From positions 1 through 40,118 of IMG/VR virus record IMGVR_UViG_3300030106_003896: a stretch of 40,118 bases of DNA; one strand, 5' to 3'. The position numbers and the translations under genes were made by a program. This DNA comes from a virus. The notes beneath the pieces are model-generated. The model was not told the DNA's origin. It did no database searches and saw only the letters and a program-made list of their open reading frames with translations. This document shows, piece by piece, positions 2,427 through 39,996 of the stretch (within the stretch, counting starts at the first letter, position 1; each line of letters begins with the position of its first letter).

Positions 2427-4011
2427 TTTTAACATTAACCCTTCGCCAGAAGAAATGGCAAGAAAAGACGAGGTATTGCACAAAGCATATAATGACCTTG
2501 TTTACTTTGGTAGAGCTTTTCTACCTAATGACTTCTTAAACAAAAGCACATCTCCCTCCTATCACTACGATGTATCTAAAAAATTAATATCAACCAAGCC
2601 CGGTGAGCGTATCTGTATCATACTTCCACGGGGCTTTGGTAAATCTATCCTTTCTAAATCTGCTATTATGCACAAGCTTTGTTTTTCAGGTGAGGATACA
2701 CAAAATTTTATAGCATGGGTATCAGAAGAACAAGGACAATCAATAGACCACCTAAAATATATCAGACACCATCTAGAGACAAACAAGACAATCAAATATT
2801 ACTTTGGTAATATGGATGGAGGCTCAGTGGGAAAAAGATGGACTGAAAAGGATTTAGTTACCCCCAAAGGTGACAGGATTATAGCCAAAGGCACCAGCCA
2901 AAGGCTTCGTGGTAGAGCTGAGGTAGATGTTCGATACACTGGCATCATTCTTGATGACTTTGAATCAGAACTAAACACAAGGACACCAGAAAGACGTGCA
3001 GACATCAAGAGGTGGGTGGTATCAACGATTTATCCGGCTTTGGAAGAATCCCCGGGTAAGGAAGGCTGGATATGGCTTTCTGGCACGATTGTGCACTTTG
3101 ATAGCTTCCTGCAAATGACATACGATGGATATAACAAAGCAAAGGAAGATAATCGCAGTTATCCTTGGCAGGTATTTTTCAAGCGTGCAATAGAGGATGG
3201 TCAGCCTATTTGGAAGGAACAGTTCCCACTTTCTAAGTTAAATGCAAAGAAAAGAGAGTTTATAGAAGCGGGACTTGTAAACAAGTTTGCTCAGGAGTAC
3301 ATGAATGATGCTAGAGATATATCCAATGCGTCATTTAAGATAGATAGGATACAATACTTTTCTGGTGAGAGAAAGTATATCAATGGATTTAATTACATAG
3401 CAGAGCACGATGAGATGATACCTATTAATCTTTACATAGGGGTAGACCTTGCAGCGACAGCTAGTGAGACCTCTGACTATCAGGTAATACTGGTCATGGG
3501 TATAGATTCACGCTCTAATCGTTATGTCTTAGAATATTTTAGAGAACGTATCCCTACCTTTGATGTGCCGCAAAAGATTATAGACTTAGCAAAGAAATAC
3601 AATCCAGTTAAAAGGGTTACAATAGAAACAGTGGCAGCACAAGAGATGGTTAGAGACATGGTAACTCGTATGAGTGCGCAGGAAAAGCGATTGATGCCCG
3701 GTATCTTCAAAGGTGTTAAGCCACCCGGTAGAATTAAGAAGGCAGATAGGCTAGAAACAACACTAGGACCTATTGTCAACTCAAAGAAGTTATATATACG
3801 TAGAGAGATGACAGAGATAGTAGATGAGTTCTTTGAACACCCAAAACCTAGGAACGATGATATTATGGATGCTCTTTATTATGCGGATTACTTTGCAAGA
3901 GCGCCTAAGTCAGCTGCTACACCAAAAGAAGGATTTAAAGGTGGAAAGAGAAAAGAAAGTCTATTCCCAAAGTTAAAAAAGTATAATTGGATGACAGGGG
4001 CAAGAACATAA
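2395..4011 (+). CDS. terL: terminase large subunit (packaging ATPase-nuclease)
   Basis: This is the DNA-packaging motor and headful or cos nuclease, 538 residues and full length for the family. The ATPase domain shows a Walker A-like PRGFGKS at residues 78-84, Walker B IILDD at 184-188 followed by Glu190, and a coupling motif SGT at 229-231. The RNase H-like nuclease domain shows the three acidic positions: GVD at residue 351, IE at 411, and NDDIMDA around 488-492. The listed start is GTG inside the upstream gene without a clear ribosome site; an ATG at 2455 (residue 21) is a possible alternative and leaves all motifs intact. Packaging partners are the small-terminase-like gene and the portal. 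Confidence 0.95.
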   Translation: MGIEELKQKNSFNINPSPEEMARKDEVLHKAYNDLVYFGRAFLPNDFLNKSTSPSYHYDVSKKLISTKPGERICIILPRGFGKSILSKSAIMHKLCFSGEDTQNFIAWVSEEQGQSIDHLKYIRHHLETNKTIKYYFGNMDGGSVGKRWTEKDLVTPKGDRIIAKGTSQRLRGRAEVDVRYTGIILDDFESELNTRTPERRADIKRWVVSTIYPALEESPGKEGWIWLSGTIVHFDSFLQMTYDGYNKAKEDNRSYPWQVFFKRAIEDGQPIWKEQFPLSKLNAKKREFIEAGLVNKFAQEYMNDARDISNASFKIDRIQYFSGERKYINGFNYIAEHDEMIPINLYIGVDLAATASETSDYQVILVMGIDSRSNRYVLEYFRERIPTFDVPQKIIDLAKKYNPVKRVTIETVAAQEMVRDMVTRMSAQEKRLMPGIFKGVKPPGRIKKADRLETTLGPIVNSKKLYIRREMTEIVDEFFEHPKPRNDDIMDALYYADYFARAPKSAATPKEGFKGGKRKESLFPKLKKYNWMTGART

Positions 4012-4020
4012 AATAAACTA

Positions 4021-4049
4021 TTGTTAGTTACAATATTTATTTTTATATT
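4021..4049 (+). promoter_or_regulatory. candidate sigma-70-type promoter before the virion genes
   Basis: In the 91-base gap after the large terminase, TTGTTA at 4021-4026 is followed after exactly 17 bases by TATATT at 4044-4049. A second -10-like TACAAT lies at 4071-4076 without a good -35. This is the widest gap between the terminase and the virion genes, so a promoter for the 802-residue protein and portal is plausible. AT-rich sequence makes chance matches common. Confidence 0.35.
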
Positions 4050-4102
4050 CTCCCGATAGAAGATTTCTGTTACAATAATTAAGCTATAGGACCACATACC
4101 AA

Positions 4103-6511: not shown

Positions 6512-8529
6512 TGGTATTAGAAAAAGATAAAAGAGCAGATTATAACCAAGAACTATATCGTAGATATAGAGATGCTAGAAAAAGCTGGGATACCGAAGCT
6601 CGTTTTGATATAGATTTTTTTCATGGTAACCACTACACTACAGAAGAAGTAGATGAGTTACAATCAAGAAACCAAGCTGATGTGCCAATGGATAGGATTG
6701 GACCAGCTATTGAAAAATTTAAAGCTGTTTTAACTTCACGTTCTCCAGCATTTACCATGACACCTAGAGAAGATTCTGATGTAAAGATTGCTTCTCTATG
6801 GAGAGTTATCATGGGATATATCTGGGGTAACTCAAATGGTGATTATCAGTTAAAGCACGCAATACATGACTACGCTACAACAGGGTTAGGTTACTTGTAT
6901 GCGTATGTAGATGCAGAGTCAGATTTTGGTAGAGGTGATGTCAAGTTCACTTATGTAAATCCCTTTCGAGTATATGCCTCTCCTAACACCCGAAATCGTT
7001 GGTTTGATGATGCTGAAAGTATTATTCTTTCCACGATACTAACCGGTGAACAGGTCGTCAACCTCTACCCTGAATTAGGAGAACAAGAAGACCCAGAGAC
7101 AGGGGAGATGCAAGTTGGCATTATACAGGATTTAGAAACTTATCTTGAAGAAGACTATCCTGATGCAATGAATGCTAACAATAAAAAGATATTTACTCCG
7201 TCCGAGGTTAAAGATTTAGACTATTACGAAAGACAGAAGTATCAGATATTAGAAAGATTTTACAAAGTCAAAGTTAGTTTTTACCGTATCATAGATATGC
7301 AGAACGGTGAAGAAGTAATTTTGAGTGAACCTGAGTATGCAGAGTTTATTGAGAACAATAGAGAACAGATAGAAGCAGGTCAATACGAAGTCATACCAGT
7401 AAGACAAACTAGAGTAAAGGTTTGCGCTAGTATCGGTCAAGTAGTTCTTTATGAGACTATCTTGAACACCGACCACTATCCTATCATACCTTTTCCAAAT
7501 GTATTCACAGAAAGCCCTTACCCAAAGTCAGATGTATCAAGGGCAAGACCTATGCAAAGGCTTTTAAATAAATTATGGTCATTAGCACTATCACACGCAC
7601 AAGCATCCGGAGGATTAAAGCTATTAGTTCCATTAGGGAGTGTAGAAGACCTTGGTCAACTAGAAAGAGACTGGGCAAATCCAAACGCAGTCATAGAAGT
7701 AGACAGCACACAAGGTGAGCCACATTTTCCAGCACCTCAGCCGTTATCTTCTGAGTTTTACAGACTAATACAGCAGTGTGAGTTCTATATTGACTTTACA
7801 TTTGGATTGCCTGAGATGATGCACGGCTTTGCTGAGAAAGCACCAGAAACAGTAAGAGCCACAGAAAGAATGATATCTTTAGGTTCAGAAAGACCAAAGT
7901 CAAAACTACGAGATATAGAGTTTAGCATTAATAGACTAGGACAGGTATTGTATAACCTATCCAAGGGTCACTATACATATAAAAAGATTTTTAGGCTCAA
8001 CGAAGCCAACAATGATATTACAGAAGCAACTATCAATATGTACGATAAAAAGGTAGGAGCAATACTAGATATCAAAAAAGAAAAACATAATTTACAACAG
8101 CATGACGTCAGGATTGAGCCCGGGTCTACGCTACCAACCAACAAGTATGCAGAGCTTGGTGTATACATGGAGGCGTTTAGAATGGGTATCGTAGATAGAA
8201 CAGAGGTTCTTAAAAAGAATCCTGAGATATTTGACAAGGAAGGTGTAATGAGAAGAACAGAAGAAAGACAGTTATTACAGAGACAGATTGCTGCAATGAC
8301 CGAGCAAATTAAGAATTTGGAGGGTGACCTCCAGACTGCCCAAAGGGAGTCCATAAGTGATAGAAAGAAAGTCGAAGTCGAGAAATTCAAGACTAGATTG
8401 AAAGATATCTCTGCGGACGCCAAAGCTGATAGACGAGTTCAACTAAACAACCTACAATCTAAGGTGAAGCTCGAAGCGGAGAAATTAGCGAATGTTAGAA
8501 AAGACGCTAGTTCTGCTCCTGAAGCTTAG
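6511..8529 (+). CDS. portal protein
   Basis: This 672-residue protein is the dodecameric ring at the packaging vertex. Its length fits P22-like portals of podoviruses. Near the N-terminus it has the usual ARKSWDTEARFDIDFFHGNHY and a later VPMDRIGPAIEKFKAVLTSR segment, matching the portal pattern in which conserved N-terminal helices lead to an R-P/x-D-x-V core. The middle (WFDDAESIILSTIL, VKVSFYRIIDM, FGLPEMMHG) fits the wing and stem regions. The C-terminal 90 residues form a Glu/Lys/Gln-rich coiled coil, as expected for a barrel or a scaffold contact. It is joined to the previous gene by TAATG and followed directly by the scaffold gene. Confidence 0.9.
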   Translation: MVLEKDKRADYNQELYRRYRDARKSWDTEARFDIDFFHGNHYTTEEVDELQSRNQADVPMDRIGPAIEKFKAVLTSRSPAFTMTPREDSDVKIASLWRVIMGYIWGNSNGDYQLKHAIHDYATTGLGYLYAYVDAESDFGRGDVKFTYVNPFRVYASPNTRNRWFDDAESIILSTILTGEQVVNLYPELGEQEDPETGEMQVGIIQDLETYLEEDYPDAMNANNKKIFTPSEVKDLDYYERQKYQILERFYKVKVSFYRIIDMQNGEEVILSEPEYAEFIENNREQIEAGQYEVIPVRQTRVKVCASIGQVVLYETILNTDHYPIIPFPNVFTESPYPKSDVSRARPMQRLLNKLWSLALSHAQASGGLKLLVPLGSVEDLGQLERDWANPNAVIEVDSTQGEPHFPAPQPLSSEFYRLIQQCEFYIDFTFGLPEMMHGFAEKAPETVRATERMISLGSERPKSKLRDIEFSINRLGQVLYNLSKGHYTYKKIFRLNEANNDITEATINMYDKKVGAILDIKKEKHNLQQHDVRIEPGSTLPTNKYAELGVYMEAFRMGIVDRTEVLKKNPEIFDKEGVMRRTEERQLLQRQIAAMTEQIKNLEGDLQTAQRESISDRKKVEVEKFKTRLKDISADAKADRRVQLNNLQSKVKLEAEKLANVRKDASSAPEA

Positions 8530-8549
8530 AGACATCTGAAAGGAATATA

Positions 8550-9383
8550 ATGGATAATCAACAAGTAGAGGCTACATCAACTGCTGACGGTTTGGTAGAT
8601 GGTGGCGCTGATATAGTACAAGAAGTACGAGAACAAACAGACGCTCAGTATGAGCAACAAGCTGACCAACCTGTAGAAGAGGCTGTAGATTACAGCGCTC
8701 CAGAGGTTAGCGTAGAAAGCGAAACAACTCCAGTAAACGAATGGGAGGTAGAAGCACGCAAGTTTCAATCTATGTATGATAAATCAACTGCAGAGAATGA
8801 AAAACTACGTAAGTTTGAACCTCTTGGACAATTACTAGAGCAAAGACCTGATTTGGTAAATATGCTTCAAGAAAATATCAACGCTCCACAGCAGCCACAA
8901 CAGCAACAACAACAAAGTCAACCGGGTCTGAAACCGGAAGACTTCAACCCTTGGGATGCGTATTACAGTCCAGAATCACCATCTTTTAAGTTCAGGCTAA
9001 ATCAAGAGATGCAGCTTGCCAAAGATGTCGTAGATAATGCGATGGCGCAACAAAAGAGACAGATGCAAGAAGAAATAACCTATAACAATACAGTCAATGA
9101 GCTTAGAAACACTTATAAGTTTTCGGATGGAGACGTTCAAGAGTTTATGGGGTTTGTTACTCAGCCCAAAGAATCTGTAGGGTTATCTAATCTTGTCAAG
9201 CTATTCAGAGATGTAAAAAACAAAGGTAACGCTCCAGAGACAGCCCAAGCAGTACAAAATGCCCAACAACAACCCAGAACAGCTGGGGTACTCCAAGGTG
9301 GTGCACAAAGTTCACCAAAGAGTGCAGAGAATCAAGTATGGGATAATATTGTAAATGCCGGGAGTCGTACTAGCGTCCTTTAA
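8550..9383 (+). CDS. putative capsid scaffolding protein
   Basis: This 277-residue protein sits exactly between portal and major capsid, the usual place of a scaffold. It is acidic and Gln-rich, with a poly-Gln tract near residues 113-123, a Glu-rich N-terminal third and predicted helices (FKFRLNQEMQLAKDVVDNAM, then QEEITYNNTVNELRNTYKF). There is no catalytic protease motif. The ATG follows GAAAGGAATATA, a good ribosome site. Scaffolds diverge fast, so the call rests on composition and gene order. Confidence 0.8.
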   Translation: MDNQQVEATSTADGLVDGGADIVQEVREQTDAQYEQQADQPVEEAVDYSAPEVSVESETTPVNEWEVEARKFQSMYDKSTAENEKLRKFEPLGQLLEQRPDLVNMLQENINAPQQPQQQQQQSQPGLKPEDFNPWDAYYSPESPSFKFRLNQEMQLAKDVVDNAMAQQKRQMQEEITYNNTVNELRNTYKFSDGDVQEFMGFVTQPKESVGLSNLVKLFRDVKNKGNAPETAQAVQNAQQQPRTAGVLQGGAQSSPKSAENQVWDNIVNAGSRTSVL

Positions 9384-9410
9384 TTAATCACATAATGGAA
9401 GGAATGACAA

Positions 9411-10769
9411 ATGGCAACATTTAATAATCCTCATCCCCTTAAGGTTGGAGACCCCGGTGCAGTTATAGACAGCACGATTCCTTCGAGACGACTGTTTAAC
9501 TTTAGTGATAGAGTAGCAGACCTCGCTCCAGAAGAATCGCCGTTTTTTGTATACTTATCCAAGGTAGCCAAAGTCCCTACGGATGACCCACAGTTTAGAT
9601 GGTTGAAAGACAGAAACAAGATTGATATGACAGATAGAAGTTTCCGTTTAGCAGCCGCTCATACTGTACCAGCTGCAGGCAGTACATTAACTTATACTGT
9701 TGAAACTGCAGGAACTTCACAAGGCTCAGTAGACTTTCTAATTAAAGGAATGGTCTTTGCTGTTGGCGAAACTAACGCCTCAACAAACGAGCCAGAAACC
9801 GCAATCGTTAGAATCGAAAGCGCTCCAATAGATGCCGGAGACACAAGCACATTTACTGGTCGTACAATATCTGCAGCAACTGGTTCAACCACTTCTGCTG
9901 CTGACCAGACTTTATGTACTATTATCGGTAGTGCATTTGAAGAAGGAACTGGTTCTCCAGACTCTTTCTCAAAGCATTTAGATAATGGTGTCGGATACTG
10001 TCAAATCTTTAAAACCTCTTGTGAGTTAACTAACACAGCAAGAGCTACTGTATATCGTGGATATGCTAGTGAGTTTGATAGAATCTGGAACTTAAAGTTA
10101 CGTGAGCACAAAGTTGACATTGAAAGAGCTATGCTCTTTGGTCAAGGTGGTGTTGTAAATGGTATCTCTTACTCTGACGGTATTGTAGGAAGTATTATTA
10201 AGAACTCACAGTCACAGATTAAAGATAATGCTCAGTTAGATTACACAGAAGATAAAGCATTCTTCTCAACTCGTACAGACGCACAGTTTACTTACGATGC
10301 GTTACTTGCTGATTTAGAAGTTGTTTTTGACCCTGCACGTGGTGGAGCTGGCGCAAAACTTGCGTTGTGTTCATTACCTGTAATCACATTCTTTAACAAG
10401 ATGGCAAGCTCTAATACTTTCTTATCTTCAGTACACTCTGCTGCTAATCCTTTAATGTCACAAGAGAAAGGTTCTTTTGGACATAAAGTGGTCAAGGTAG
10501 AAACTATTCACGGTGACCTAACCCTAGTAAAAGAGCCCCTATTTAGAGGTTTTGCTGCTGGGTTCATGGCTATGGTTGACTTGGACCAAGTTGCTTACAG
10601 ACCTTTGATTGGTAACGGTGTAAACAGAGACACACACATTATGACTAATGTGCAGTCTGCTGATGAAGACCTACGTAAAGATATGGTATTGACTGAAGCT
10701 GGTTTAGAAGTTTCTTTACCAGAAGCACACGCATTGTTCAACTTTGAATCTGCTTACACAGCACCATAA
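9411..10769 (+). CDS. major capsid protein
   Basis: This 452-residue protein should form the icosahedral shell. It resembles the HK97-fold capsid proteins of the phage SU10/DUF5309 type as I remember them: an N-terminal RRLFNFSDRVADLAPEESPF segment, a beta-rich insertion (residues about 80-170), then YCQIFKTSCELTNTARATVY and the long spine-helix segment FDRIWNLKLREHKVDIERAM, ending with HIMTNVQ and a short C-terminal strand. Position after the scaffold and a strong ribosome site (GGAAGGAATGACAA before the ATG) support it. No search was possible, so the subfamily is less certain than the role. Confidence 0.9.
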   Translation: MATFNNPHPLKVGDPGAVIDSTIPSRRLFNFSDRVADLAPEESPFFVYLSKVAKVPTDDPQFRWLKDRNKIDMTDRSFRLAAAHTVPAAGSTLTYTVETAGTSQGSVDFLIKGMVFAVGETNASTNEPETAIVRIESAPIDAGDTSTFTGRTISAATGSTTSAADQTLCTIIGSAFEEGTGSPDSFSKHLDNGVGYCQIFKTSCELTNTARATVYRGYASEFDRIWNLKLREHKVDIERAMLFGQGGVVNGISYSDGIVGSIIKNSQSQIKDNAQLDYTEDKAFFSTRTDAQFTYDALLADLEVVFDPARGGAGAKLALCSLPVITFFNKMASSNTFLSSVHSAANPLMSQEKGSFGHKVVKVETIHGDLTLVKEPLFRGFAAGFMAMVDLDQVAYRPLIGNGVNRDTHIMTNVQSADEDLRKDMVLTEAGLEVSLPEAHALFNFESAYTAP

Positions 10770-27300: not shown

Positions 27301-28070
27301 TTTTATTATTTAAAAGGTTTGCTTATAGGCAGGCAGATTTGATAATCAGAGAAGCTAATAAGGCTTATGAACAAAAGAATATGGCTTTTTTATTTAGGCT
27401 TGGTATGGCTGGAATGTTTGGTGGTACTTTCGTGAACTGGGCTAAAGATGCCTTGACTAAACATATCATAGGTGTCAACGTATATGACGATAGCTACAGC
27501 TTTGCAATAGATGGCGTGAACTACACTACTAAAGACTTTATAGAAGGTATAGGCGCTGTAGGTGCTCTCGGTTATATATCAGATATTATAGCCTCAGAAA
27601 GTAAGTGGAGAGCCTTGGAGTTTGCTTTAAAACCTGTATTAATTAAAGACGCTGAAACATTATACACAGCTGTGCAAAAAGTATCTAAAGATATTGAAGA
27701 GATAGGCTTTAATTCAATCACAGCACAACGCTCTGCAAAATATTTTCAACCTCTTCTAGGGGCTAGTGCAAGAAGAGTATTAAGAACTTTTGAAACGCCC
27801 AAACAAAGAAGCGACTATAGGAGAACAAGACTGGGTGTCATAAAGAAAGAAATATTTGATAGTATGCTTGATGGTGACGATGCGAGAGTGAAAAGAATAA
27901 TACTAAACTGGAACAACACTTTTCCAGAAAGACCTTTAACGCAGGATGACTTATCACCTTCCCAAATAAACAGATACTTAGAAAGAAAATATCTTAGAAA
28001 AGAATTAGAGTTTGAAAACAAATTACCTAAAAGAAAAAAGAGACCAATTTTTAACGAAAAACTTTATTAA
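24309..28070 (+). CDS. large internal virion (DNA ejection) protein
   Basis: At 1253 residues this is the largest protein of the window. Residues about 85-105 form an Ala/Gly-rich hydrophobic segment (AATLLLGGGLGGAA), and a second such region lies near 1035-1110 (LGMAGMFGGTFVNWAK and GIGAVGALGYISDIIA). Between are long helical, Lys/Arg-rich stretches. This plan fits the large ejection proteins of podoviruses (T7 gp16 class in size and place). I see no lytic transglycosylase motif, unlike T7 gp16. It is the last late gene and overlaps the opposite-strand gene by 3 bases. Confidence 0.75.
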   Translation: MPITEIDRKLFDDVFYDTPELKREVSKSKLYGVVPGDWLPNWIKQGYNNSIEGMARQVYDGKPVFKVDEDYDPGIVEDVLATVMSFATPTDAATLLLGGGLGGAAVKKFATKNLTAEFARRQAVKSGLEKTAAARLVKQATPKVMNTARARAVTGATQLGFYSGLASSLGQEITDGDIDFVKTLKDSAKGAALGALTGATAVKTNQYAVTNNLTPKQTVALQKTAEIGVFGTTQPLLEGSLPSAQDYVHAAGVIGGLTLKSKLTKGLSKAPVDKIRQYEARQELRRAARKEAEQNASRKRLQETWTNGKKEVKILSDWQGDHARDTHIKIQDIKTNEISQINRKEFFQTGNYRRAKDSFGNDFATGIRKKIFGLKSKLNISDKDFKEMVDRASGKEYSLKKSGKKGRQYRTNYQVLNNEGRNKLLISLETKQKTNQVISDYNKSGIEVNNTTGGSLLKQSIPERFYNAITGRVKAAAKKAEFTYLPVDKVIDNPIGRRIIKTINDLDLTNATLFTRLNDRLANATYTARDGKKYTFQDLASQELIKGVKGGIKSGFNRKKLRQELADDLESTNPKDIRNTKEIRDVLNLTYRASKRAGIDVAPFLDNYFPKVIKPKILKKIYDDIDRFVTTDPYGNAQDTELKPSIIRNLEIAMRTGRFSDETVSAINHIVALKLNQRQQGTVRTRPLSRSEQMGEAFQILKNQIHSERVVTNKMLEKARKDFILPKEFYERDAGLVLTNYLSQASKRMSYVKHAGANGERVFDRLNALRKQPGGARQAEILEKAFNAQTGLIETDLKYNWNPRAKTILNEFVNVNVATKIGLGFATIPNLTQSFISTALSLGYAPMFKGTYKALTDKNYRRDIKKYSGAGLLELNQIILGFQPLASSPLSKLANVLTTASGFQGINKINKLISAFSAHEAALQWQRLATSKPTTARQVARRNFAIQNLRRMGITNPTKKITIKNSAKAMYEFSRDAQLQRNVLREPSFFNTPKFQPFLLFKRFAYRQADLIIREANKAYEQKNMAFLFRLGMAGMFGGTFVNWAKDALTKHIIGVNVYDDSYSFAIDGVNYTTKDFIEGIGAVGALGYISDIIASESKWRALEFALKPVLIKDAETLYTAVQKVSKDIEEIGFNSITAQRSAKYFQPLLGASARRVLRTFETPKQRSDYRRTRLGVIKKEIFDSMLDGDDARVKRIILNWNNTFPERPLTQDDLSPSQINRYLERKYLRKELEFENKLPKRKKRPIFNEKLY

Positions 28071-28375
28071 TAATAAGTAACTTTCATCCTGTGCATCTTG
28101 CTAGGATTCAGAGCGTAGTATTCATTCTTCTTTTGCTTCTTAAATTTAGCCTGTTCTTTCTTCTCCATTTCAAGCCAACACTTTTCTAGCGAATCTACTC
28201 TTGTTTCATAACCTGTTATCATTCCACAATGTAAATAGTTTGTAGAATTATAGCTGTCTGTCATAGGATTCCAGTTTGATTCTCCGCACATTGCGCACTT
28301 AGAATCTATCAAAGGGCATTTTATGAACAATGTTTTACTTTCTGTATTTTTTTGTAAACTTGTAGACAAAAACAC
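28067..28375 (-). CDS. hypothetical Cys-containing protein, 102 aa
   Basis: This 102-residue protein is the last early gene and meets the late module tail to tail. It has CAMCGESNW at residues 28-36, Cys20 and Cys50 nearby, and Cys66 beyond, which could make a zinc site. The rest is a charged helix rich in Lys and Glu with a basic end. I do not recognise the family. The ATG has no clear ribosome site, so a later start cannot be excluded. The overlap of stop codons with the 1253-residue gene leaves no room for a terminator between the modules. Confidence 0.55.
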   Translation of the reverse strand: MFLSTSLQKNTESKTLFIKCPLIDSKCAMCGESNWNPMTDSYNSTNYLHCGMITGYETRVDSLEKCWLEMEKKEQAKFKKQKKNEYYALNPSKMHRMKVTYY

Positions 28376-30523: not shown

Positions 30524-30925
30524 TTACTTATAGGATTTTCTTATCTGTTGCATCTTATCTAAAGATGCCTGAAGATTATCCATTGTAATCTTGCCATCGG
30601 CTAACGCTTTTAAGACCTTATCTGAATCCTCTTGCTTAAGACCATCCATATCTAAATGAACCATCGCCTCTACAAACTTCTTGGTCCCCTCCTGTTCTGT
30701 CTCTAAGACTCTCTTGCATTGCTCTTTGTCCATGTATGGCTTTTTAACAACCGGTCTATCTGGCGGGCTATCCTCATCCACGCCGTTCATTACATATCCT
30801 ACAAACGCTTCTATCTTTCCTATCTCAGATGGTTTCAACATCTTACCCTGTTTGTACAATTCGAGTGCAAACCCATATCGCACCTTGCCTCTATTCACCT
30901 TATCCCAATCTACCTCTTGGTCCAT
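30524..30925 (-). CDS. hypothetical protein near recombination genes, 133 aa
   Basis: I chose ATG 30925 because GAAAGGG lies just before it; the frame extends further without a ribosome site. The 133-residue product begins DWDKVNRGKVRYGFALELYK and continues with a short helical region and a Lys/Asp-rich C-terminal half (LKALADGKITMDNLQASLDK). The W-x-x-VN-x-GKVR-x-G opening recurs beside SSB-like genes in phages, by memory. It lies between the Cas4-like and SSB-like genes and overlaps the former by 16 bases. No function is assigned. Confidence 0.6.
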   Translation of the reverse strand: MDQEVDWDKVNRGKVRYGFALELYKQGKMLKPSEIGKIEAFVGYVMNGVDEDSPPDRPVVKKPYMDKEQCKRVLETEQEGTKKFVEAMVHLDMDGLKQEDSDKVLKALADGKITMDNLQASLDKMQQIRKSYK

Positions 30926-33830: not shown

Positions 33831-33861
33831 TTATAACTATTAAATTTCAATAAAGTTCCAA
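33831..33861 (-). promoter_or_regulatory. early promoter-like site G
   Basis: TTGGAA at 33861-33856, then 19 bases, then TTATAA at 33836-33831 (- strand). It has the same 31-bp layout as six other sites. It stands 4 bases before the chosen ATG of the 66-residue gene. Confidence 0.6.
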
Positions 33862-33952
33862 AATATTTTTTAGGGTATAAACTGATTATTGTTATTTGTG
33901 AAATTAACTTCAATTAATCAATACTACTTTAGTTGTGTCCATACCCTAAGCC

Positions 33953-34189
33953 TCATCCTAGAATATACTCAACGTAGTTCCTATTGTAAACTCCGAGCGT
34001 TATCAACCTTTTAACCCATATTCTGTCTGCCATTGTACTATCTATCTCTCCATCTTGATAAAAGTTTTCTGGTGCCCATTGAGGTTGTAGAATAATTTCT
34101 ATCTGCTCATCGTTTAATTTGTTAACATCATATCCGAACTCATCGAATATCTTTTTTTCGTAATCTCCTAACGATTCTTTTACGTTCAT
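33953..34189 (-). CDS. hypothetical acidic protein, 78 aa
   Basis: This 78-residue protein begins with helix VKESLGDYEKKIFDEFGYDV and continues LNDEQIEIILQPQWAPENFY, then a C-terminal helix with WVKRLITLGVYNRNYVEYIL. The ribosome site (GAAAGGGTAATAAAG) is good. I recognise no family. It is followed by a 126-base non-coding stretch that holds promoter-like site G. Confidence 0.65.
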   Translation of the reverse strand: MNVKESLGDYEKKIFDEFGYDVNKLNDEQIEIILQPQWAPENFYQDGEIDSTMADRIWVKRLITLGVYNRNYVEYILG

Positions 34190-34212
34190 CTTTATTACCC
34201 TTTCTATTTATA

Positions 34213-34473
34213 TTACAGAATCTCGGCGAAACATGGAGTGTACTTGCCAACGTAGGAACCGGCTACATTGTAGTAGAAGTGGTCATACGCATCTTCCTCT
34301 GATATTTCATGCTTCTCCATTAGTATCTCAATACATTTGTTCTTGTCATACAGAACTACTGCTTCGTGTCCGTGCCTCTCTACGATTCCCAAAATAGCAT
34401 CTCCAAATCCGTTTGCTACCATACAATCTGGGTAGTTCTCTGCAATAAAAGTTTTCTTATCTTCCGCATTCAT
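34213..34473 (-). CDS. conserved phage hypothetical protein, 86 aa
   Basis: This 86-residue protein has GFGDAILGIVERHGHEAVVL, YDKNKCIEILMEKH and EEDAYDHFYYNVAGSYVGKYTP. I recall the G-F-x-x-A-I-x-G ... V-x-YD-x-x-K/R-x-I-E ... A-x-E/D-x-F-x-x-N-x-x-G pattern as a widespread phage and bacterial hypothetical family. The role is unknown. It overlaps the HNH gene by 17 bases. Confidence 0.7.
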   Translation of the reverse strand: MNAEDKKTFIAENYPDCMVANGFGDAILGIVERHGHEAVVLYDKNKCIEILMEKHEISEEDAYDHFYYNVAGSYVGKYTPCFAEIL

Positions 34474-34942
34474 TTATAAAGTCCTCTATTTTTCTTTCCA
34501 TACATATCTGATAAAACATTCTGTTAGTCTCCTTCGCTGTTTTTATTTGGTGGCAATTCGCACATAACACCCTGCATTTCTTTGCCTCTTTCTCTAACTC
34601 TTCAATCGTTACTTTGTTCCGAAAAAGATTTGCCATGTTATCCGTCTTAATATATTTGCTCTTGTGGTCGAACTGCAAAGCCAATGGATTGCTCTCGCCA
34701 CATACTACGCACTGCCTGTCTAATAAATAATCGTACTTCCACTCGTATCTTTCACGCAAACCAAGATTATATTCATCAACTTTCTTCTTCCATTTATATC
34801 GCTTATTTCGAGCTAAAATCTTTTCTTTAGCCCCAAGTACCAAATGATAATTAATCGTTGATTTAGAGCATCTTAAGAGCTTAGAAATGGCATTGTAGCT
34901 ATATCCCTCGCCCCGTAGCTGATGTATCTTTTCACGTAGCAT
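34457..34942 (-). CDS. HNH endonuclease with N-terminal helix-turn-helix
   Basis: This 161-residue protein has an HTH of resolvase type at residues 1-40 (YSYNAISKLLRCSKSTINYH), a basic linker, and an HNH domain: Cys78-x2-Cys81, Phe91-Asp92-His93, then Cys127-x2-Cys130-His131 with Asn129. The Cys pairs bind zinc and Asp92/His93 with Asn129 and His131 make the nicking or cutting site. Such free-standing genes are typically homing endonucleases, here placed inside the early operon. No intron or split gene is visible around it. Promoter-like site I lies 34 bases upstream of the ATG; the ribosome site is TTAGGAAATATAA. Confidence 0.85.
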   Translation of the reverse strand: MLREKIHQLRGEGYSYNAISKLLRCSKSTINYHLVLGAKEKILARNKRYKWKKKVDEYNLGLRERYEWKYDYLLDRQCVVCGESNPLALQFDHKSKYIKTDNMANLFRNKVTIEELEKEAKKCRVLCANCHQIKTAKETNRMFYQICMERKIEDFINECGR

Positions 34943-34976
34943 TTATATTTCCTAATGTGCCGGTATCATGTACCAT

Positions 34977-35007
34977 AATATAAATAGTGGCATGACAAAA
35001 TGTCCAA
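34977..35007 (-). promoter_or_regulatory. early promoter-like site I
   Basis: TTGGAC at 35007-35002 and TATATT at 34982-34977 on the - strand, 19 bases apart, 34 bases before the HNH endonuclease ATG. The -35 box differs by one base from the other copies. Confidence 0.55.
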
Positions 35008-35034
35008 TACAATAATATGACCTTCTAAATCTTA

Positions 35035-35193
35035 TCATCTTGCAAAGTTAAGCCATTCGAGCTTAGTGCCTATAAAGAATCTTCTTTTCTTTCTATGCTT
35101 ACCTAAGTCCCATATCCTTAAATCGTAACCGTAAGGGTTTTGCTTTAATGCTTTCTTTGCCTCACGTAACGTCTGGTAATACTTTTTCATCAT
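35035..35193 (-). CDS. small basic conserved protein, 52 aa
   Basis: This 52-residue protein overlaps the upstream stop (ATGATGA) with a good AAGGTGGG site before its ATG at 35193. It has a helix YQTLREAKKALKQNPYGYDL, a basic turn with five Lys/Arg, and ends with RRFFIGTKLEWLNF. The alternation NP...IWDL...RRFFIGT-x-x-EWL is a pattern I recall from small phage proteins that lack a known role. It is basic and may bind nucleic acid. Confidence 0.6.
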   Translation of the reverse strand: MMKKYYQTLREAKKALKQNPYGYDLRIWDLGKHRKKRRFFIGTKLEWLNFAR

Positions 35194-35375
35194 CCCACCT
35201 TACTTTTATATTTATCATACTCAGCATTTCTTTCTTTCTCTGTGCTAAACCACTCAACACCTACAATATCTTCATCTAAATAATAATATATACCAAAAGG
35301 TTTATTATGGTCTATCATTCTTCTAACTTTAAGAGTAGCCTCGTTTTCCCAAAAAACTTTTTCGCATCTCTCCAT
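35190..35375 (-). CDS. hypothetical small protein, 61 aa
   Basis: This 61-residue protein has a helix with VFWENEATLKVRRMIDHNKP, a Tyr-rich strand (FGIYYYLDED) and IVGVEWFSTEKERNAEYDKY, which resembles the closing helix of small phage regulators. It follows the ADP-ribosyltransferase-like gene by one base, with GAGGAG before its ATG. The family is not recognised. Confidence 0.6.
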   Translation of the reverse strand: MERCEKVFWENEATLKVRRMIDHNKPFGIYYYLDEDIVGVEWFSTEKERNAEYDKYKSKVG

Positions 35376-35376
35376 T

Positions 35377-35784
35377 TTATAACTCCTCGTAGTCCATCCA
35401 TATCATAGAATCTGGATTGATTATAGCCTCTGACTCTTGTCTGGCATTTGTGAAGTACAATATGTTTTCCTTATCTATCTCGCCTTTCATAATGTATGGC
35501 GTACCTCCTAATCTACTGAATCGTAGGGCGAACATCTTTGCCACCTCCTCATTGGTTGTCCATGACGCCCCGAGTTGTGTGTCAAACTTCTCCTTCGCTA
35601 GTATGCCTCTGTAAAGCATGACCTCATCGGGTAGCTTGTCGTACATCTCTTGCGATTCTTCGTCTGTCTTTTGCTCTACCTCGCTGAAGAAGCCCATCAC
35701 CGCATCCCAACTCTTGAATATGTTTAGGGGAAACTCTGCGTCAACGTAGGCATCTATCCCCTTCTGTGCTAGTTCTCTGTTCAT
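35377..35784 (-). CDS. ADP-ribosyltransferase-like protein (R-S-E class)
   Basis: This 135-residue protein carries the three blocks of an Arg-specific ADP-ribosyltransferase: Arg59-Gly60 in VMLYRG, Ser74-Trp75-Thr76-Thr77 in the GASWTTNEEVAKMFA block, and Glu117-x-Glu119 in NARQESEAII. The order and spacing suit NAD-dependent transfer to an arginine of a host protein. Phages such as T4 use enzymes of this class on RNA polymerase and other host proteins, which is why this one may remodel the host early. I chose ATG 35784 from the AAAGGAC site; promoter-like site F ends 20 bases before it. Substrate is unknown. Confidence 0.7.
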   Translation of the reverse strand: MNRELAQKGIDAYVDAEFPLNIFKSWDAVMGFFSEVEQKTDEESQEMYDKLPDEVMLYRGILAKEKFDTQLGASWTTNEEVAKMFALRFSRLGGTPYIMKGEIDKENILYFTNARQESEAIINPDSMIWMDYEEL

Positions 35785-35804
35785 CTGTTGTCCTTTCTTT
35801 TCTT

Positions 35805-35835
35805 CTTTAACTCGGGAATACCTCAAAGGTTCCCC
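35805..35835 (-). promoter_or_regulatory. early promoter-like site F
   Basis: GGGGAA at 35835-35830 and TTAAAG at 35810-35805 on the - strand, 19 bases apart, in the gap before the ADP-ribosyltransferase-like gene. The -10 is weaker than in the other copies. Confidence 0.5.
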
Positions 35836-35842
35836 AGTTTTT

Positions 35843-36226
35843 TTACAACTCCGAATTAACATTGCAATATTTCTCGCCACTCTCCTTGAAGTACCGTTGA
35901 ACTTCCTTACCAAAGCAGTAGTCTGCGTAGTACTCAACGTCTTGACTTACCCACTCTGATTTGTAGTCCTCAATATGCTTAGACATATATTTGTGTAATT
36001 TCTCATTGTTATAGTAAGGCTCTTCTTCGAAAAACTTTTCTAGAATCGGTAGCCTATCTCCTAAGTCATTCTTTATAGACTCCATTCGGTTCTTGAATGT
36101 ATCATCATCACAGATTGTGTAATCTATACGTGTCTCATAACCTCCGAACTTTTCTGGAGTATCTGAGGATTGTACGCCGAACCACCATTTACCCTCTACG
36201 TCTCCATTGTAGAATCTGCCCATCAT
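35843..36226 (-). CDS. conserved phage hypothetical protein, GRFYNGDVEGKWWFG type
   Basis: Start codons ATG 36226 and 36223 both overlap the upstream stop; GAGGTGG before them fits. The product of about 127 residues begins MMGRFYNGDVEGKWWFGVQS, followed by SSDTPEKFGGYE and a long acidic helical part. I recall the GRFY-x-G-D-x-x-GKFWF/G-x-QSSD opening from phage and virus proteins without assigned function. The aromatic-rich start suggests a conserved binding face. It lies just upstream of the ADP-ribosyltransferase-like gene. Confidence 0.7.
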   Translation of the reverse strand: MMGRFYNGDVEGKWWFGVQSSDTPEKFGGYETRIDYTICDDDTFKNRMESIKNDLGDRLPILEKFFEEEPYYNNEKLHKYMSKHIEDYKSEWVSQDVEYYADYCFGKEVQRYFKESGEKYCNVNSEL

Positions 36227-36450
36227 TCCACCTCGCTTTCTGAACAAGCATCGCAGTAGTGAATCTCATCGTCTTGCTCGTCCTCTGTCCAACCCCAATC
36301 GTTGATTAAGGTCTTGGTTGTTTCTTTCCAACAATAGAAGCCATCTTCATCGCCGTAACTTCTATATCTTATCTCCATGTCAATCTTAATTGACTCGTTG
36401 CATCCCGTGCCGTCGCATCCGTACTCTTGTTGTGGTGTGTACATCGCCAT
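36223..36450 (-). CDS. Cys-rich small protein, 75 aa
   Basis: This 75-residue acidic protein has Cys12-x4-Cys17, Cys40 and the C-terminal Cys66-x2-Cys69, which could bind one zinc. The middle contains EIRYRSYGDEDGFYCWKET, giving a Trp/Tyr-rich face. The family is unknown. Promoter-like site B, with a perfect TATAAT, lies 21 bases before its ATG, and GAGAGGAAAC is a strong ribosome site. Confidence 0.65.
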   Translation of the reverse strand: MAMYTPQQEYGCDGTGCNESIKIDMEIRYRSYGDEDGFYCWKETTKTLINDWGWTEDEQDDEIHYCDACSESEVE

Positions 36451-36471
36451 GTTTGTTTCCTCTCTTTATTT

Positions 36472-36502
36472 ATTATACGCTTAAGTTTAATTAAAGTTCC
36501 AA
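36472..36502 (-). promoter_or_regulatory. early promoter-like site B (best copy)
   Basis: TTGGAA at 36502-36497 and a perfect TATAAT at 36477-36472 on the - strand, 19 bases apart, with GCG before the -10. It lies 21 bases upstream of the ATG at 36450. Confidence 0.65.
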
Positions 36503-36508
36503 ACTTTT

Positions 36509-36751
36509 TTATTTTATGGTGTTCAATTCTTTTTCCCAGAAAGAATCTTGTTCTATTTTTTCGATAGGCTTTCCGTAAAAATGTGAATTGAAATAGTTCC
36601 CTAGTTCATACATATTCCAATCTTTTTTATTACGCATCCAGCTTTGCAATAATGTTTCGATAAATTTTTGTCGCTCTTCATCGTCCATTTCATAAGCTAC
36701 AAATCTAGATAGCACATACATAAACCAATCTTTACTTATTTTTGTGTTCAT
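36509..36751 (-). CDS. hypothetical protein, 80 aa
   Basis: This 80-residue protein is helical with ISKDWFMYVLSRFVAYEMDD, FIETLLQSWMRNKKDWNMYE and a final SFWEKELNTIK. It is rich in Trp, Phe and Tyr for its size. The ribosome site (AAAGGGAAAAAG) is strong. I recognise no family. A 242-base leader, read from promoter-like site C, precedes it. Confidence 0.65.
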   Translation of the reverse strand: MNTKISKDWFMYVLSRFVAYEMDDEERQKFIETLLQSWMRNKKDWNMYELGNYFNSHFYGKPIEKIEQDSFWEKELNTIK

Positions 36752-36993
36752 CTTTTTCCCTTTGTTTTTGTTTTACAAATCTTCTAGGACGGGCAAAGAT
36801 TGAATCGATTAAACCATTTCCTGTTCATCTTTCCCTTGCGGGCAATCATCTTTCACGGGCTTAAGTTTAATGAGTGTCCCCCTTCTTAGGTTCTGCCCAC
36901 AGATAGTAAACTCTATCTACACTCGTGTTGTACCGAATCGACCCAGTAGGTTGTCAGTATCACACCCGTCCCAATTTTTAAATATCTTTTTCT
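36752..36993 (-). other. long untranslated leader, 242 bases
   Basis: No protein frame of normal length lies between promoter-like site C and the gene at 36751. It holds a small hairpin (AGATAG/CTATCT near 36900-36917), a degenerate copy of the promoter (GGGGAC with ATTAAACTTAAGC, shared with site B), and possible micro-ORFs of 21 codons or fewer. A long leader with a decayed promoter suggests regulation or a small RNA, not proven. Confidence 0.4.
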
Positions 36994-37024
36994 TTTATAC
37001 GCATCAATTATCTATTTGTTCCAA
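36994..37024 (-). promoter_or_regulatory. early promoter-like site C
   Basis: TTGGAA at 37024-37019 and TATAAA at 36999-36994 on the - strand, 19 bases apart. It overlaps the 3' end of the upstream gene, and the next start codon is 242 bases away. Confidence 0.55.
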
Positions 37025-37321
37025 ACTTTTTTTACTCTCTATAAACTCATAGTCGCCAACTACCAACCAACTCAAAGCATCGTTAATCATCTCCTTGTCA
37101 ATGCTTTTCTTATGTGGTTTGTTCCAATCTTTATGATGGACTTTCCCCTCTGCTAGTTGTTCCCAATCTATTTCACAATCTGTACAGATTCTGTCTTGGT
37201 AGTAACTTGTCACAAAGTGTTCTTCATTGTGGTGTATAGTTGCCACCCCTCCATCGTCTGTTCGTATTGTGATATCATCCTTATCTTCTGTAATAATCTC
37301 GTAAAAGATTTTTTCTTTCAT
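37004..37321 (-). CDS. hypothetical protein, 105 aa
   Basis: This 105-residue protein opens with strands (FYEIITEDKDDITIRTDDGG, VATIHHNEE) and has ICTDCEIDWEQL in the middle, with Cys46 and Cys49 as a possible half metal site. The C-terminal helix is NDALSWLVVGDYEFIESKKS. The family is unknown. The 3' end overlaps promoter-like site C. The ribosome site (AGAGAGATGAACT) is fair. Confidence 0.65.
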   Translation of the reverse strand: MKEKIFYEIITEDKDDITIRTDDGGVATIHHNEEHFVTSYYQDRICTDCEIDWEQLAEGKVHHKDWNKPHKKSIDKEMINDALSWLVVGDYEFIESKKSLEQIDN

Positions 37322-37366
37322 AGTTCATCTCTCTTTCTGTAGTTTATTTTTATTTCACAATCTGTA

Positions 37367-37774
37367 TTATATTGTGCATTCTTCTAATACTTTTTCTTCA
37401 AAGATTGATTCTTTCTCTCCGTAGAATAGCATATCATCTAACCACTGCACCCAATCCTCGGTGGTGTCTAGCTCTCGAACTGCACCATCAAACCAATCTT
37501 TATATCTGTATTCTATCCGTCCGTCACGATAGAAATTTATTTCATCACTTGGACCACCCCACGAAAGCTGATACCTAAAGTACCCTTCGTCTTGATTGTC
37601 AAATGTATCCTTCTCTACATAATCAAAGCATAATCCGTAGCTCTCCCACAATCCTAAATCTTCTACTGCATCTTCCCAGATATCGTCAACCTCCATATAC
37701 TTTCTAATATCGTTGGCTACTTTTTTTAGCTCGCCATCTATTAATTGTTCGCAAGTTTTTTGTTGTTCATCCAT
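37367..37774 (-). CDS. conserved phage hypothetical protein, LSWGGPSDE type
   Basis: This 135-residue protein holds YGLCFDYVEKDTFDNQDEGY and FRYQLSWGGPSDEINFYRDG, a sequence type I have seen as a widespread phage and bacterial hypothetical family, often with the core FDN-Q-x-E-GYFRYQLSWGGPSDEF. It then has IEYRYKDWFDGAVRELDTTE and an acidic end. The role is unknown. Promoter-like site E lies 22 bases before its ATG; the ribosome site is GAGAGGAAAC. Confidence 0.7.
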   Translation of the reverse strand: MDEQQKTCEQLIDGELKKVANDIRKYMEVDDIWEDAVEDLGLWESYGLCFDYVEKDTFDNQDEGYFRYQLSWGGPSDEINFYRDGRIEYRYKDWFDGAVRELDTTEDWVQWLDDMLFYGEKESIFEEKVLEECTI

Positions 37775-37796
37775 TTTTGTTTCCTCTCGTTTTTAC

Positions 37797-37827
37797 TTTA
37801 TACGTTTTATTATTTTAAAAGTTCCCA
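37797..37827 (-). promoter_or_regulatory. early promoter-like site E
   Basis: TGGGAA at 37827-37822 and TATAAA at 37802-37797 on the - strand, 19 bases apart, 22 bases before the ATG of the LSWGGPSDE-type gene. Confidence 0.55.
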
Positions 37828-37828
37828 A

Positions 37829-38008
37829 TTATTTTATTATTTTATATTCTGATTTATTTAATAGAATATCTCCACAAAATACCAAGCCCTTCTTTTTGTA
37901 ATCTGGTTGATTGTGAGCAATCACTGCATTGTATACTTTGTTTTTATCTAGTTTAATAACGGGGTAAGTTCCTAGTAATCTGTAATTTTCTTTTGGTTGT
38001 ATTTTCAT
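37829..38008 (-). CDS. small protein, 59 aa
   Basis: This 59-residue protein has AAAGG seven bases before its ATG at 38008. It reads KENYRLLGTYPVIKLDKNKV, YNAVIAHNQPDYKKKGLVFC and ends with Lys/Ile. It looks like a small beta protein with one Cys. The family is unknown. Its stop lies next to promoter-like site E. Confidence 0.6.
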   Translation of the reverse strand: MKIQPKENYRLLGTYPVIKLDKNKVYNAVIAHNQPDYKKKGLVFCGDILLNKSEYKIIK

Positions 38009-38089
38009 TGTATAACCTTTCTTATATTATGTAATCTAAATTTATAGGGGGCTAAGGAAAGGAAACCCTAACCCCCCTTTTACCCTTAA
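38009..38089 (-). other. imperfect G-rich hairpin between early genes
   Basis: In the 81-base gap, GGGGG at 38047-38051 and its continuation can pair with CCCTAACCCCC at 38065-38077, with two mismatches across an A/G-rich loop. On the - strand, TATAAATTTA follows, not a U-run. It may slow transcription or mark a message end. Nothing else is visible. Confidence 0.35.
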
Positions 38090-38371
38090 CTAATCTTTTT
38101 TATTGTACTTTTCATTTAGTCTCTGTCTTCTAGCTTGCAAGGTTCTAATTTGCAAATCAAGCTCTCTATCTTCTTTTTCAAAATCCACTCTCTTTCTTAT
38201 GTTCTTTTTCAAATACATTTGGTAAAAATCCCAAGTGTAGGATGAGCCTCGATAGTCTGCAAGGTCCTCACTTTCTACACTTTCTGCAGTCTGTATAATA
38301 TCTTCTATAAGGGCTTGAACGTTTGCTTCGCTTACTTCTACTTCTCTTTCTTCTGATATATTAAAAATCAT
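38090..38371 (-). CDS. hypothetical coiled-coil protein, 93 aa
   Basis: I chose ATG 38371 from the AAAGGAATTTTTAAA leader; the frame runs longer without a ribosome site and would include the promoter. The 93-residue product is acidic at the N-terminus (FNISEEREVEVSEANVQALI), then has YTWDFYQMYLKKNIRKRVDF, and ends in a basic coiled coil (LDLQIRTLQARRQRLNEKYN). The family is unknown. It is the first gene after the repeat region. Confidence 0.65.
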   Translation of the reverse strand: MIFNISEEREVEVSEANVQALIEDIIQTAESVESEDLADYRGSSYTWDFYQMYLKKNIRKRVDFEKEDRELDLQIRTLQARRQRLNEKYNKKD

Positions 38372-38399
38372 TTTAAAAATTCCTTTGCGTTTGTTGTAT

Positions 38400-38430
38400 T
38401 GTATACAAGATAAATAAAAAAAAGTTCCAA
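38400..38430 (-). promoter_or_regulatory. early promoter-like site A
   Basis: TTGGAA at 38430-38425 and TATACA at 38405-38400 on the - strand, 19 bases apart, 28 bases before the ATG at 38371. Confidence 0.55.
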
Positions 38431-39030: not shown

Positions 39031-39996
39031 TTATGAAACGTAGGCTTTTTCTCCAAAGTCAAGCATACCATCCACAAAGTGAGCATTATTGTCAAATACA
39101 GCCTTAGTTATCTTATCCTTGTGCCATAGGGTATTAGTACCCGCTTGCATAAGGTCCCATAAGCGTCCATCCTTGTATTCAGGCTTATTGTGAAACTTAT
39201 CTAAGATTTCACCGTAGCGTAGCGCTGGTAGCTTATTGATATGGTTTTTCCTGATGTCTGTCAGGGCTTCCATAGTCAAGGGGGCTTGTAGTTTACCGCA
39301 AGCATTTGCAAAGCTGTCCAGTCTTCTAACAATACCCTCACCCCTGAGAGTGGCAGTAGCTGTCATAATCTCCTGTTGCCAGTCAACATTAGACATAGTG
39401 TGAGCAAATGATTTGCCAATACCGTGTCTAGCTGACAGCATACCATTCTTACAGACTTGAATCATAAAGTCAATACGCCAGCCAGCTGGTGAGCTTTGGT
39501 CATAACTGTTAATCTCGGTAAATGTCAAATAAGCAACATCACCATTATTAAGTTCTCTTTGAATAGATTGAGTCCTGAAGACATTCTTGTAACGTTTACC
39601 GTCAAAGAATATCCTGTCATGTTCCCAGTCTAAGCCAGATTCATCTCTAATAATATTGCATTTATCATTGATAGCTTTATTCTTGATTAACAAATATTTA
39701 GGGCTTACAATTCCAGCCTCTAAATATTGTCCAGTATCTCTTTTAACTCTCACGTTACGGGCTCCGCTTTGAAAGCCGTCCGCATTCTCTAAAGGTAGAA
39801 CATCAATCTCACAAAATGGGTCAAATGTACCGCCATTAACATTTTGTGGAATGTCAACAGAATCTACAACAACAGCCTCTTTTGTAATGTTTGCTGGTTG
39901 TACGATTGGTTGAACTGGTATAATACCATTAGATTGTGAAATACCGTTAGATTGTGCACCGTTCATCATTTGTGCGTATTCATCATATTGGTTCAT
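39031..39996 (-). CDS. DUF932 (phage/plasmid-like) protein
   Basis: This 321-residue protein matches the DUF932 pattern as I know it: a flexible N-terminus (residues 1-50), then NVRVKRDTGQYLEAGIVSPK and YLLIKNKAINDKCNIIRDES, TFTEINSYDQSSPAGWRIDF, then VCKNGMLSARHGIGKSFAHT and a C-terminal helical part. DUF932 proteins occur in phages and plasmids and are often encoded near replication or anti-defence genes; their activity is not settled. It has an almost perfect ribosome site (TAGGAGGTTCAC). It is the first gene of the early direction, next to the iteron region on one side and the window end on the other. Confidence 0.85.
   Translation of the reverse strand: MNQYDEYAQMMNGAQSNGISQSNGIIPVQPIVQPANITKEAVVVDSVDIPQNVNGGTFDPFCEIDVLPLENADGFQSGARNVRVKRDTGQYLEAGIVSPKYLLIKNKAINDKCNIIRDESGLDWEHDRIFFDGKRYKNVFRTQSIQRELNNGDVAYLTFTEINSYDQSSPAGWRIDFMIQVCKNGMLSARHGIGKSFAHTMSNVDWQQEIMTATATLRGEGIVRRLDSFANACGKLQAPLTMEALTDIRKNHINKLPALRYGEILDKFHNKPEYKDGRLWDLMQAGTNTLWHKDKITKAVFDNNAHFVDGMLDFGEKAYVS

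Follow-up and report, generated by a model that had tools for sequence, protein, structure and literature searches.

We analysed a virus record of 40,118 bases (IMG/VR record IMGVR_UViG_3300030106_003896, hereafter the window), which carries its late genes on the + strand and its early genes on the − strand. The late genes include those for the terminase large subunit (TerL, phrog_38), the portal (phrog_156) and the major head protein (phrog_1328), and the early genes encode DUF932-like, Cas4-like exonuclease and RusA-like proteins, a protein with a helix-turn-helix (HTH) and an HNH domain, and many small proteins without an assigned function. The early strand also carries a family of promoter-like sites with the motif GGAACTT-N14/15-[CA]GT[AT][TA]AA, which resembles promoters of the extracytoplasmic function (ECF) type and is the subject of this analysis. 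Each site is named by the position of the first G of GGAAC (Table 1).

The original prediction had listed seven such sites, each with a GGAAC-type box, 18 further bases and a TATA element in one fixed geometry. Four of them (38430, 37827, 37024 and 36502, with TATA[AC][AT]) have this make-up and represent the strong sites of the window, 38428, 37825, 37022 and 36500 in our numbering. The box is present at 35835 with TTAAAG at the −10 distance, TTATAA stands at this distance in 33861, and 35007 has no GGAAC and reads TTGGACA. The geometry is fixed as GGAAC-N16 or N17, and is not common to all seven sites. A Shine-Dalgarno sequence and an ATG follow 20 to 28 bases downstream in four of the seven, as judged by eye; 37024 has neither nearby and is followed instead by a foldable stretch without an open reading frame (ORF). 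The exact sequence GGAAC-N16-CGTATAA occurs three times in the window, each time on the early strand. The plain pattern with up to two mismatches is found six times, which is not clearly beyond chance (shuffles gave a mean of 2.5, and nine of 100 reached six).

We scored the sites with two matrices. Matrix 1 was built from 19 relatives' sites, with the window excluded and orthologous sites of near relatives included, using a picking pattern that fixes GGAAC and GTAT. It gave 16.4, 25.3, 24.8 and 26.0 bits for 38428, 37825, 37022 and 36500, and 5.5, 1.9 and 4.2 bits for 35833, 35005 and 33859. The best scores in 200 dinucleotide shuffles of the early region averaged 9.8 bits (highest 17.6). No place in the late region or on the other strand of the early region scored above 8.3 bits. 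Matrix 2, made from 23 sites of distant loci only to remove the orthologue and pattern bias of matrix 1, gave 17.6, 19.9, 17.9, 24.2, 12.0, −1.2 and 14.1 bits in the same order. The four strong sites took the top four places on the early strand, the + strand reached at most 7.0 bits, and the best scores in 100 simulated early regions averaged 10.0 bits (highest 20.9, with three of the 100 reaching 16.4). A lone score of about 15 bits proves nothing, because 31212, in the coding sequence of the Cas4-like gene, scored 13.3 and 15.4 bits with matrix 1 and 2. We excluded it from the sites, as we did 32586 (15.3 and 10.9 bits), which overlaps a start codon. The check set beforehand, by relatives, divergent flanks and shuffles, upheld the four strong sites.

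The other three differ from one another. Site 35005, without GGAAC and with the two low scores given above, was rejected as a family member. Judged by its conservation at orthologues, 35833 is a putative weaker member: GGAAC is kept in all five near relatives with the ADP-ribosyltransferase (ART)-like gene (L096, L009, L095, L102 and L101), the orthologous sites read CGTTAAA in L102 and GGAAC-N16-CATATAA in the distant L030, and in L093, where the ART-like gene is mostly gone, GGAAC is also gone. The place of 33859 is occupied by an intact site, GGAACTTTTTGAAACCTTGT[GA]CGTTTAAG, in L095, L009, L093 and L096, and the window, L101 and L102 retain the −35 half only, which suggests that 33859 is a remnant. 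The place of 38428, which we call P2, is likewise occupied in L095, L101, L102, L011 and L009, and sites recur 3' of DUF932 genes in distant loci, as P2 does.

Table 1. Candidate promoters and associated features of the early region of the window (positions 1 to 40,118)
Feature	Position	Strand	Remarks
Candidate ECF-like promoter P2, GGAACTTTTTTTTATTTATCTTGTATAC	38401..38428	−	28 nt before ATG 38371, after the DUF932-like gene
Candidate ECF-like promoter, GGAACTTTTAAAATAATAAAACGTATAA	37798..37825	−	22 nt before ATG 37774
Candidate ECF-like promoter, GGAACAAATAGATAATTGATGCGTATAA	36995..37022	−	Ahead of the RNA-like cassette
Candidate ECF-like promoter, GGAACTTTAATTAAACTTAAGCGTATAA	36473..36500	−	21 nt before ATG 36450; also at the L133 orthologue
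Putative weak member, GGAACCTTTGAGGTATTCCCGAGTTAAA	35806..35833	−	20 nt before ATG 35784 of the ART-like gene
Presumed remnant	33832..33859	−	−35 half retained, −10 half lost relative to L095, L009, L093 and L096
TTGACA box of sigma-70-like promoter P0	17..22	−	−10 beyond the record end
DUF932-like gene, first early gene	39031..39996	−	PF06067, below cut-off
Accessory cassette gene, 135 aa, phrog_36747 (function not assigned)	37367..37774	−	Preceded by three distinct upstream flanks
Accessory cassette gene, 75 aa	36223..36450	−	
RNA-like cassette, no ORF	36781..36974	−	Behind site 37022
ART-like gene, 135 aa, phrog_4776 (function not assigned)	35380..35784	−	YRG, SWTT and ESE kept in orthologue

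In the early regions of 16 loci (L106 and L109 are one record, and several loci are near-identical), 36 of the 85 CGTATA sequences on the early strand have GGAAC upstream, compared to 0 of 66 on the other strand. The spacing between the two was 16 bases in 34 cases and 17 bases in two, and no case was found elsewhere within 10 to 24 bases. This one-strand enrichment bears out the earlier proposal of an early-gene promoter family with an ECF-like −35 box instead of TTGACA. Exact GGAAC-N16-CGTATA was found in 16 of 24 records and the reversed pattern in none. The records without the exact form are L103, L107, L108 and L110 (the last two with N17), L030 (CATATA) and L116 to L118, which have only 43-44% of the Cas4-like protein in common and in which the motif is absent.

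DUF932 alignment extended the comparison to 56 fetched loci, 46 of which were analysed (10 were already in the set and excluded; copies were kept in), with proteins 31-58% identical to that of the window. GGAAC-N18-TATA occurs 91 times on their early strand and twice on the other; sites recur 139-525 bases upstream of the DUF932 gene (P1) and from 355 bases downstream. Some of the 46 loci with readable flanks show no site there, and L183 has none at all. Counts at spacings of 19-27 bases (up to 42) may be put down to AT runs after the −10. In 33 of the 46 loci, we counted 46 motif matches on the early strand vs. none on the other. After removal of L160, first met by DNA pattern, and of L147 and L151, which are near loci already in the set, 30 distant non-redundant loci remained, and GGAACTT-N14/15-[CA]GTAT[AT] was present 42 times on their early strand (in 22 of the 30) and was absent from the other; by chance, 0.04 matches are expected, as estimated from 100 Markov simulations, none of which had more than one. 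Counted from GGAAC, 35 of the 42 matches have N16 and seven N17. Additionally, 14 early-strand matches were seen at other spacings (19, 23 and 29 after GGAACTT).

Two blind scans of IMG/VR with the DNA pattern recovered, among other hits, the divergent family members L110 (TerL 67%), L124 (TerL 69%, DUF932 39%) and L120 (TerL 76%, portal 71%), and five of the 13 loci of the second scan belong to the family (L108, L109, L110, L120 and L124). L111, one of four loci from the first scan, has its match inside coding sequence; L119, L121 to L123 and L125 to L128, several of them mutual copies, show no Shine-Dalgarno sequence and ATG after the hit by eye and were not counted as promoters.

The position and conservation of the sites agree with a promoter function. 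An ATG lies 23-31 bases past the −10 TATA in 29 of 41 sites, a set from which those closer than 170-200 nt to the end of a locus were omitted. At the orthologues of the gene starting at 36450 and of the ART-like gene (about 53-55% protein identity), GGAAC is kept at 5/5 positions and the −10 at 6/7 and 3/7, respectively, and the 60 bases upstream keep only 19 and 20 of 60. We are almost certain that the promoter family is real.

The −10 had originally been described as being of sigma-70 type. A sigma-70 −10 is TATAAT, with a strong A at base 2 and a T at base 6. We examined sites selected for GGAACTT and a downstream Shine-Dalgarno sequence and ATG, with the −10 ignored (110 sites, reduced to 47 non-redundant ones, some of which are not promoters). 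The −10 columns of these 47 sites read C29/A14, G38, T44, A33/T14, T35/A9, A37 and A31, followed by a column with A18, C8, G8 and T13, which would be T-7 in a sigma-70 promoter. Base 2 is thus A in 33 and T in 14 sites. The assignment to sigma-70 is not supported by these columns, because the best-conserved bases are the G and T of CGT and the T-7 column is random. The −35 box is GGAAC and not TTGACA, which is found instead at a promoter-like site, P0, at the head of the early region.

The hallmark of ECF promoters is AAC at −35 and CGT at −10, and the −35 of Escherichia coli RpoE is GGAACTT (both PMC8103513), identical to the phage box. Bacillus subtilis SigW promoters are given as TGAAAC-N16,17-CGTA, extended to CGTAT (PMC2375139), the −10 nearest to the phage motif among the systems compared, and the described targets of Streptomyces coelicolor sigmaE have the same layout, mostly with CGTC (PMC6767563). 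The phage sites share with these three systems the AAC at −35, here as a GGAAC that keeps a constant spacing to CGTATA and is enriched there on a single strand, the CGT at −10 (C29, G38 and T44 of 47, with A in place of C in 14) and the 16-17 bases between the boxes, as seen both in the 16 loci (34 and 2) and in the distant loci (35 and 7). They differ in that they serve phage early genes, that the first −10 base is C or A, and that searches of the phage records revealed no cognate sigma gene. On the strength of this likeness, we consider the sites to be probable ECF-type promoters.

The head of the early region is incomplete in the window. About 400 bases at the 40118/1 junction, which join the end of the record to its start in L012, L009 and L095, are missing. 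In these three relatives, the missing part holds P0 (TTGACAGGTATAGTGTTTTTACTATAAA), an AT-rich stretch and then P1 (GGAAC-N16-CATATA), which precedes the DUF932 gene by about 180 bases. Of 33 loci scanned for a TTGAC[AT] promoter-like site ahead of DUF932, 31 have one on the early strand and two have one on the opposite strand; in AT-rich DNA, only the TTGAC part of such a site is informative. ECF-type sites come next, at the DUF932 gene and at the variable accessory genes up to the HNH gene. AT-rich stretches of TAATATTA-like repeats (L012 at about 9490-9650 and upstream of 11650; L095 upstream of 1364), conserved among relatives, occupy the interval from P0 to P1 and that from the DUF932 gene to P2, and possibly represent a replication origin.

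The sites also seem to act as joints at which accessory genes are exchanged. Sorted by their flanks, the 41 sites give 25 upstream and 28 downstream families, which are combined in 35 ways. In the window (37825) and L009 (5991), a shared upstream gene end is followed by different cassettes, and the homology stops at GGAAC. We located 288 ends of homology blocks in nine accessory regions. Of these, 66 (22.9%) lie within 10 nt of a promoter, 4.7 times the null mean of 4.9% (largest 8.7%), and 81 (28.1%) within 30 nt (null 8.7%); as the pairs compared are reciprocal, the ends are not independent of one another. Gene starts without a promoter, used for a crude comparison, gave 0.292, a value that has no null of its own. 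The ends sit beside the promoter rather than inside it, since only 14 of 288 (4.9%; null 2.9%, largest 5.9%) fall within the 28-bp site.

One of the apparently exchanged segments has no ORF. This RNA-like cassette of about 195 bases, closed by GGACGGG/CCCGUCC, was found after three different upstream flanks and in three contigs besides the window, with 96-97% identity in L095 and L009 (and L005). It folds with z values of −1.8 and −1.9, had no Rfam match, and compensatory changes were absent in the three sequences compared. It is possibly a phage non-coding RNA.

This arrangement recalls the PeSL elements of T4-type phages, in which an early promoter is joined to a stem-loop (PMC4503421). Both use repeated early promoters as gene-shuffling joints; the PeSLs as described have a stem-loop, which the phage sites mostly do not, and the phage promoter is ECF-like. 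Over 37 stretches upstream of sites the mean folding z was −0.3, so a stem-loop as a general part of the sites was rejected. The value was below −2 in one of the 37 (L095 1364, −3.8); the strongest hairpins were otherwise at L101 2090 (z = −1.9) and L102 3494 (z = −1.8), with one seen by eye in L133.

We then asked who reads the promoters. Searches with Sigma70_r2 in three sets of 15, 7 and 18 phage records gave no match at E<=1; together these are 33 different records, of which many are fragments, and 11 of 14 control genomes did match. Sigma70_ECF had no match in 18 phage records. Region-4-like matches were confined to the HTH of the HNH protein, which exceeds the cut-off in G002 alone, and to two very long frames, where they are weak. 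A search for T7-type RNA polymerases is uninformative on the phages, since no control matched. The HNH protein itself (34457-34942, −) joins an HTH_38 to an HNH endonuclease domain and is conserved in near clades. Because of the missing Sigma70_r2 matches in the records searched, we favour a host ECF sigma, and a factor already in the cell suits the data because such a site precedes the first early gene in relatives. A host ECF sigma would thus be the likeliest reader, and for the full account the balance tips slightly in favour. The original suggestion that host polymerase reads the sites with an unusual specificity was probably right.

Several observations weigh against a host ECF sigma and ECF-type sites. 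Eight of the 24 records lack exact GGAAC-N16-CGTATA, including the fairly close L103 and L107 (both fragments). The C of CGT is replaced by A in 14 of the 47 sites, and the −10 of RpoE is of GTCTAA type, unlike the phage GTATAA, which is nearer to SigW. The early proteins 28067-28375, 30527-30925 and 34457-34942 were matched in all four distant motif-bearing records compared (34457-34942 only partially), and could be activators or a phage factor. Such a factor could come first, because P0 lies ahead of P1, and it is possible that a phage sigma is too divergent for Pfam profiles.

The last points lead to an alternative that we consider rather unlikely, namely that a very divergent ECF-like sigma or another specificity factor encoded by the phage directs host polymerase, as do phiEco32 gp36 and 7-11 gp47. 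Such phage sigmas exist and diverge quickly, these two sharing 15% identity (PMC8948821); early proteins without assigned function are common to the motif-bearing records compared, and P0 could produce the factor first. However, the sigma profiles were unmatched in all records searched, many of them fragments, and the region-4-like matches have the sources named above. As described in PMC8948821, the phiEco32 and 7-11 systems likewise place phage genes under promoters unlike sigma-70, but make the sigma themselves and serve middle or late genes, whereas here the sites serve early genes and no sigma gene was found, within the sensitivity of the profiles and the fragments searched. The window sites lie on the early strand, and the late region stays at or below 8.3 bits. 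The present motif is neither the 7-11 late promoter, GTAAtg-16-aCTA, nor the tAATGTAtA read by phiEco32 gp36 (PMC8948821).

An activator of MotA type, which would bind GGAAC at sigma-70 promoters with a weak −35, is in our judgement unlikely. T4 middle promoters consist of a MotA box and a sigma-70 −10, and resemble the phage sites in having a box other than TTGACA at the −35 position. The TATA at 18 bases in many sites, the HTH and HNH protein conserved in near clades and the possibility that P0 makes an activator first would fit, but the columns of the −10 do not suit sigma-70: base 6 is uninformative, 14 of the 47 sites have T at base 2, and 38 retain the preceding G. The sites also serve early instead of middle genes. 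No MotA-like annotation occurs among the window early proteins scanned, with no dedicated MotA search made. DUF932 as a required activator was rejected, as it was not found in the site-bearing G002 (44 kb) and G022 (57 kb) nor in the fragments G005, G010 and G024. The clustering of homology ends near the sites could also indicate that they are mainly repressor operators or recombination targets and not promoters; against this stand their single orientation, the two half sites at fixed spacing, the Shine-Dalgarno sequence and ATG at near-constant distance and the ECF-like content, which make this very improbable. We give hardly any credence to the earlier idea that a polymerase modified by the ART-like protein, whose gene lies behind 35833, reads the sites. 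The protein has YRG, SWTT and ESE, which we liken to the R-S-ExE pattern of arginine ADP-ribosyltransferases, but the window protein matches no Pfam family and both structure models are poor. Its gene, which is itself behind such a promoter, turned up in L030 and the near relatives but not in 10 other motif-bearing record groups (several of them fragments) nor in the four distant records. It therefore cannot be the general cause, and its distribution already contradicts this explanation. Hairpin promoters of N4 type were considered because CCC and GGG surround the −10 in the sites of L104 to L106, but they are missing from most of the other sites.

No close isolate of the phage was found among 50,697 phage records with the portal, TerL, major head protein, Cas4, a 1253-aa protein and two DUF932 proteins as queries; distant matches to TerL, portal and major head protein exist at less than 31% identity. 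Regarding the host, portal alignment or TerL revealed no relative in 84,980 species genomes, and no tRNA was present in 15 loci scanned. From contig names, we take the relatives to come largely from marine samples; the family would thus consist of uncultured and probably mostly marine phages, the window phage included. The 57-kb contig G022 (IMGVR_UViG_3300030098_005115) contains two sets of terminase, portal and head genes (3469-9518 and 43180-51197) and looks chimeric, or represents two phages joined during assembly. The early region of L109 contains a gene (2867-3316) that is putatively peptide-deformylase-like.

Returning to a host ECF sigma as the reader, we propose the following course of events. 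P0, with its TTGACA box at the start of the early region, would be read by the housekeeping sigma. The host ECF sigma with host RNA polymerase would read the early-gene sites, so that every early cassette is transcribed from an ECF-type promoter, perhaps with a boost from envelope stress upon infection. With the same short promoter on the accessory genes, recombination beside it would swap genes and leave their expression intact. The complete model, in which the early genes from the first on are under a host extracytoplasmic stress sigma switched on partly by the envelope stress of infection, and in which the same promoter serves as an exchange joint for accessory genes and one RNA cassette, is tentative, and we hold it to be doubtful as a whole.

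Our searches of open-licence papers turned up no description of such promoters in phages. If the proposal is true, phage early genes would be served by promoters of stress-sigma type without a phage sigma, and phage gene expression would be tied to the stress state of the host. It would predict a host trait, an ECF sigma reading GGAACTT and [CA]GTATAA, and the motif would offer a way to find early genes in many uncultured phages. Further, the family would represent a second case, beside the PeSLs of T4, of promoters that serve as gene-shuffling joints.

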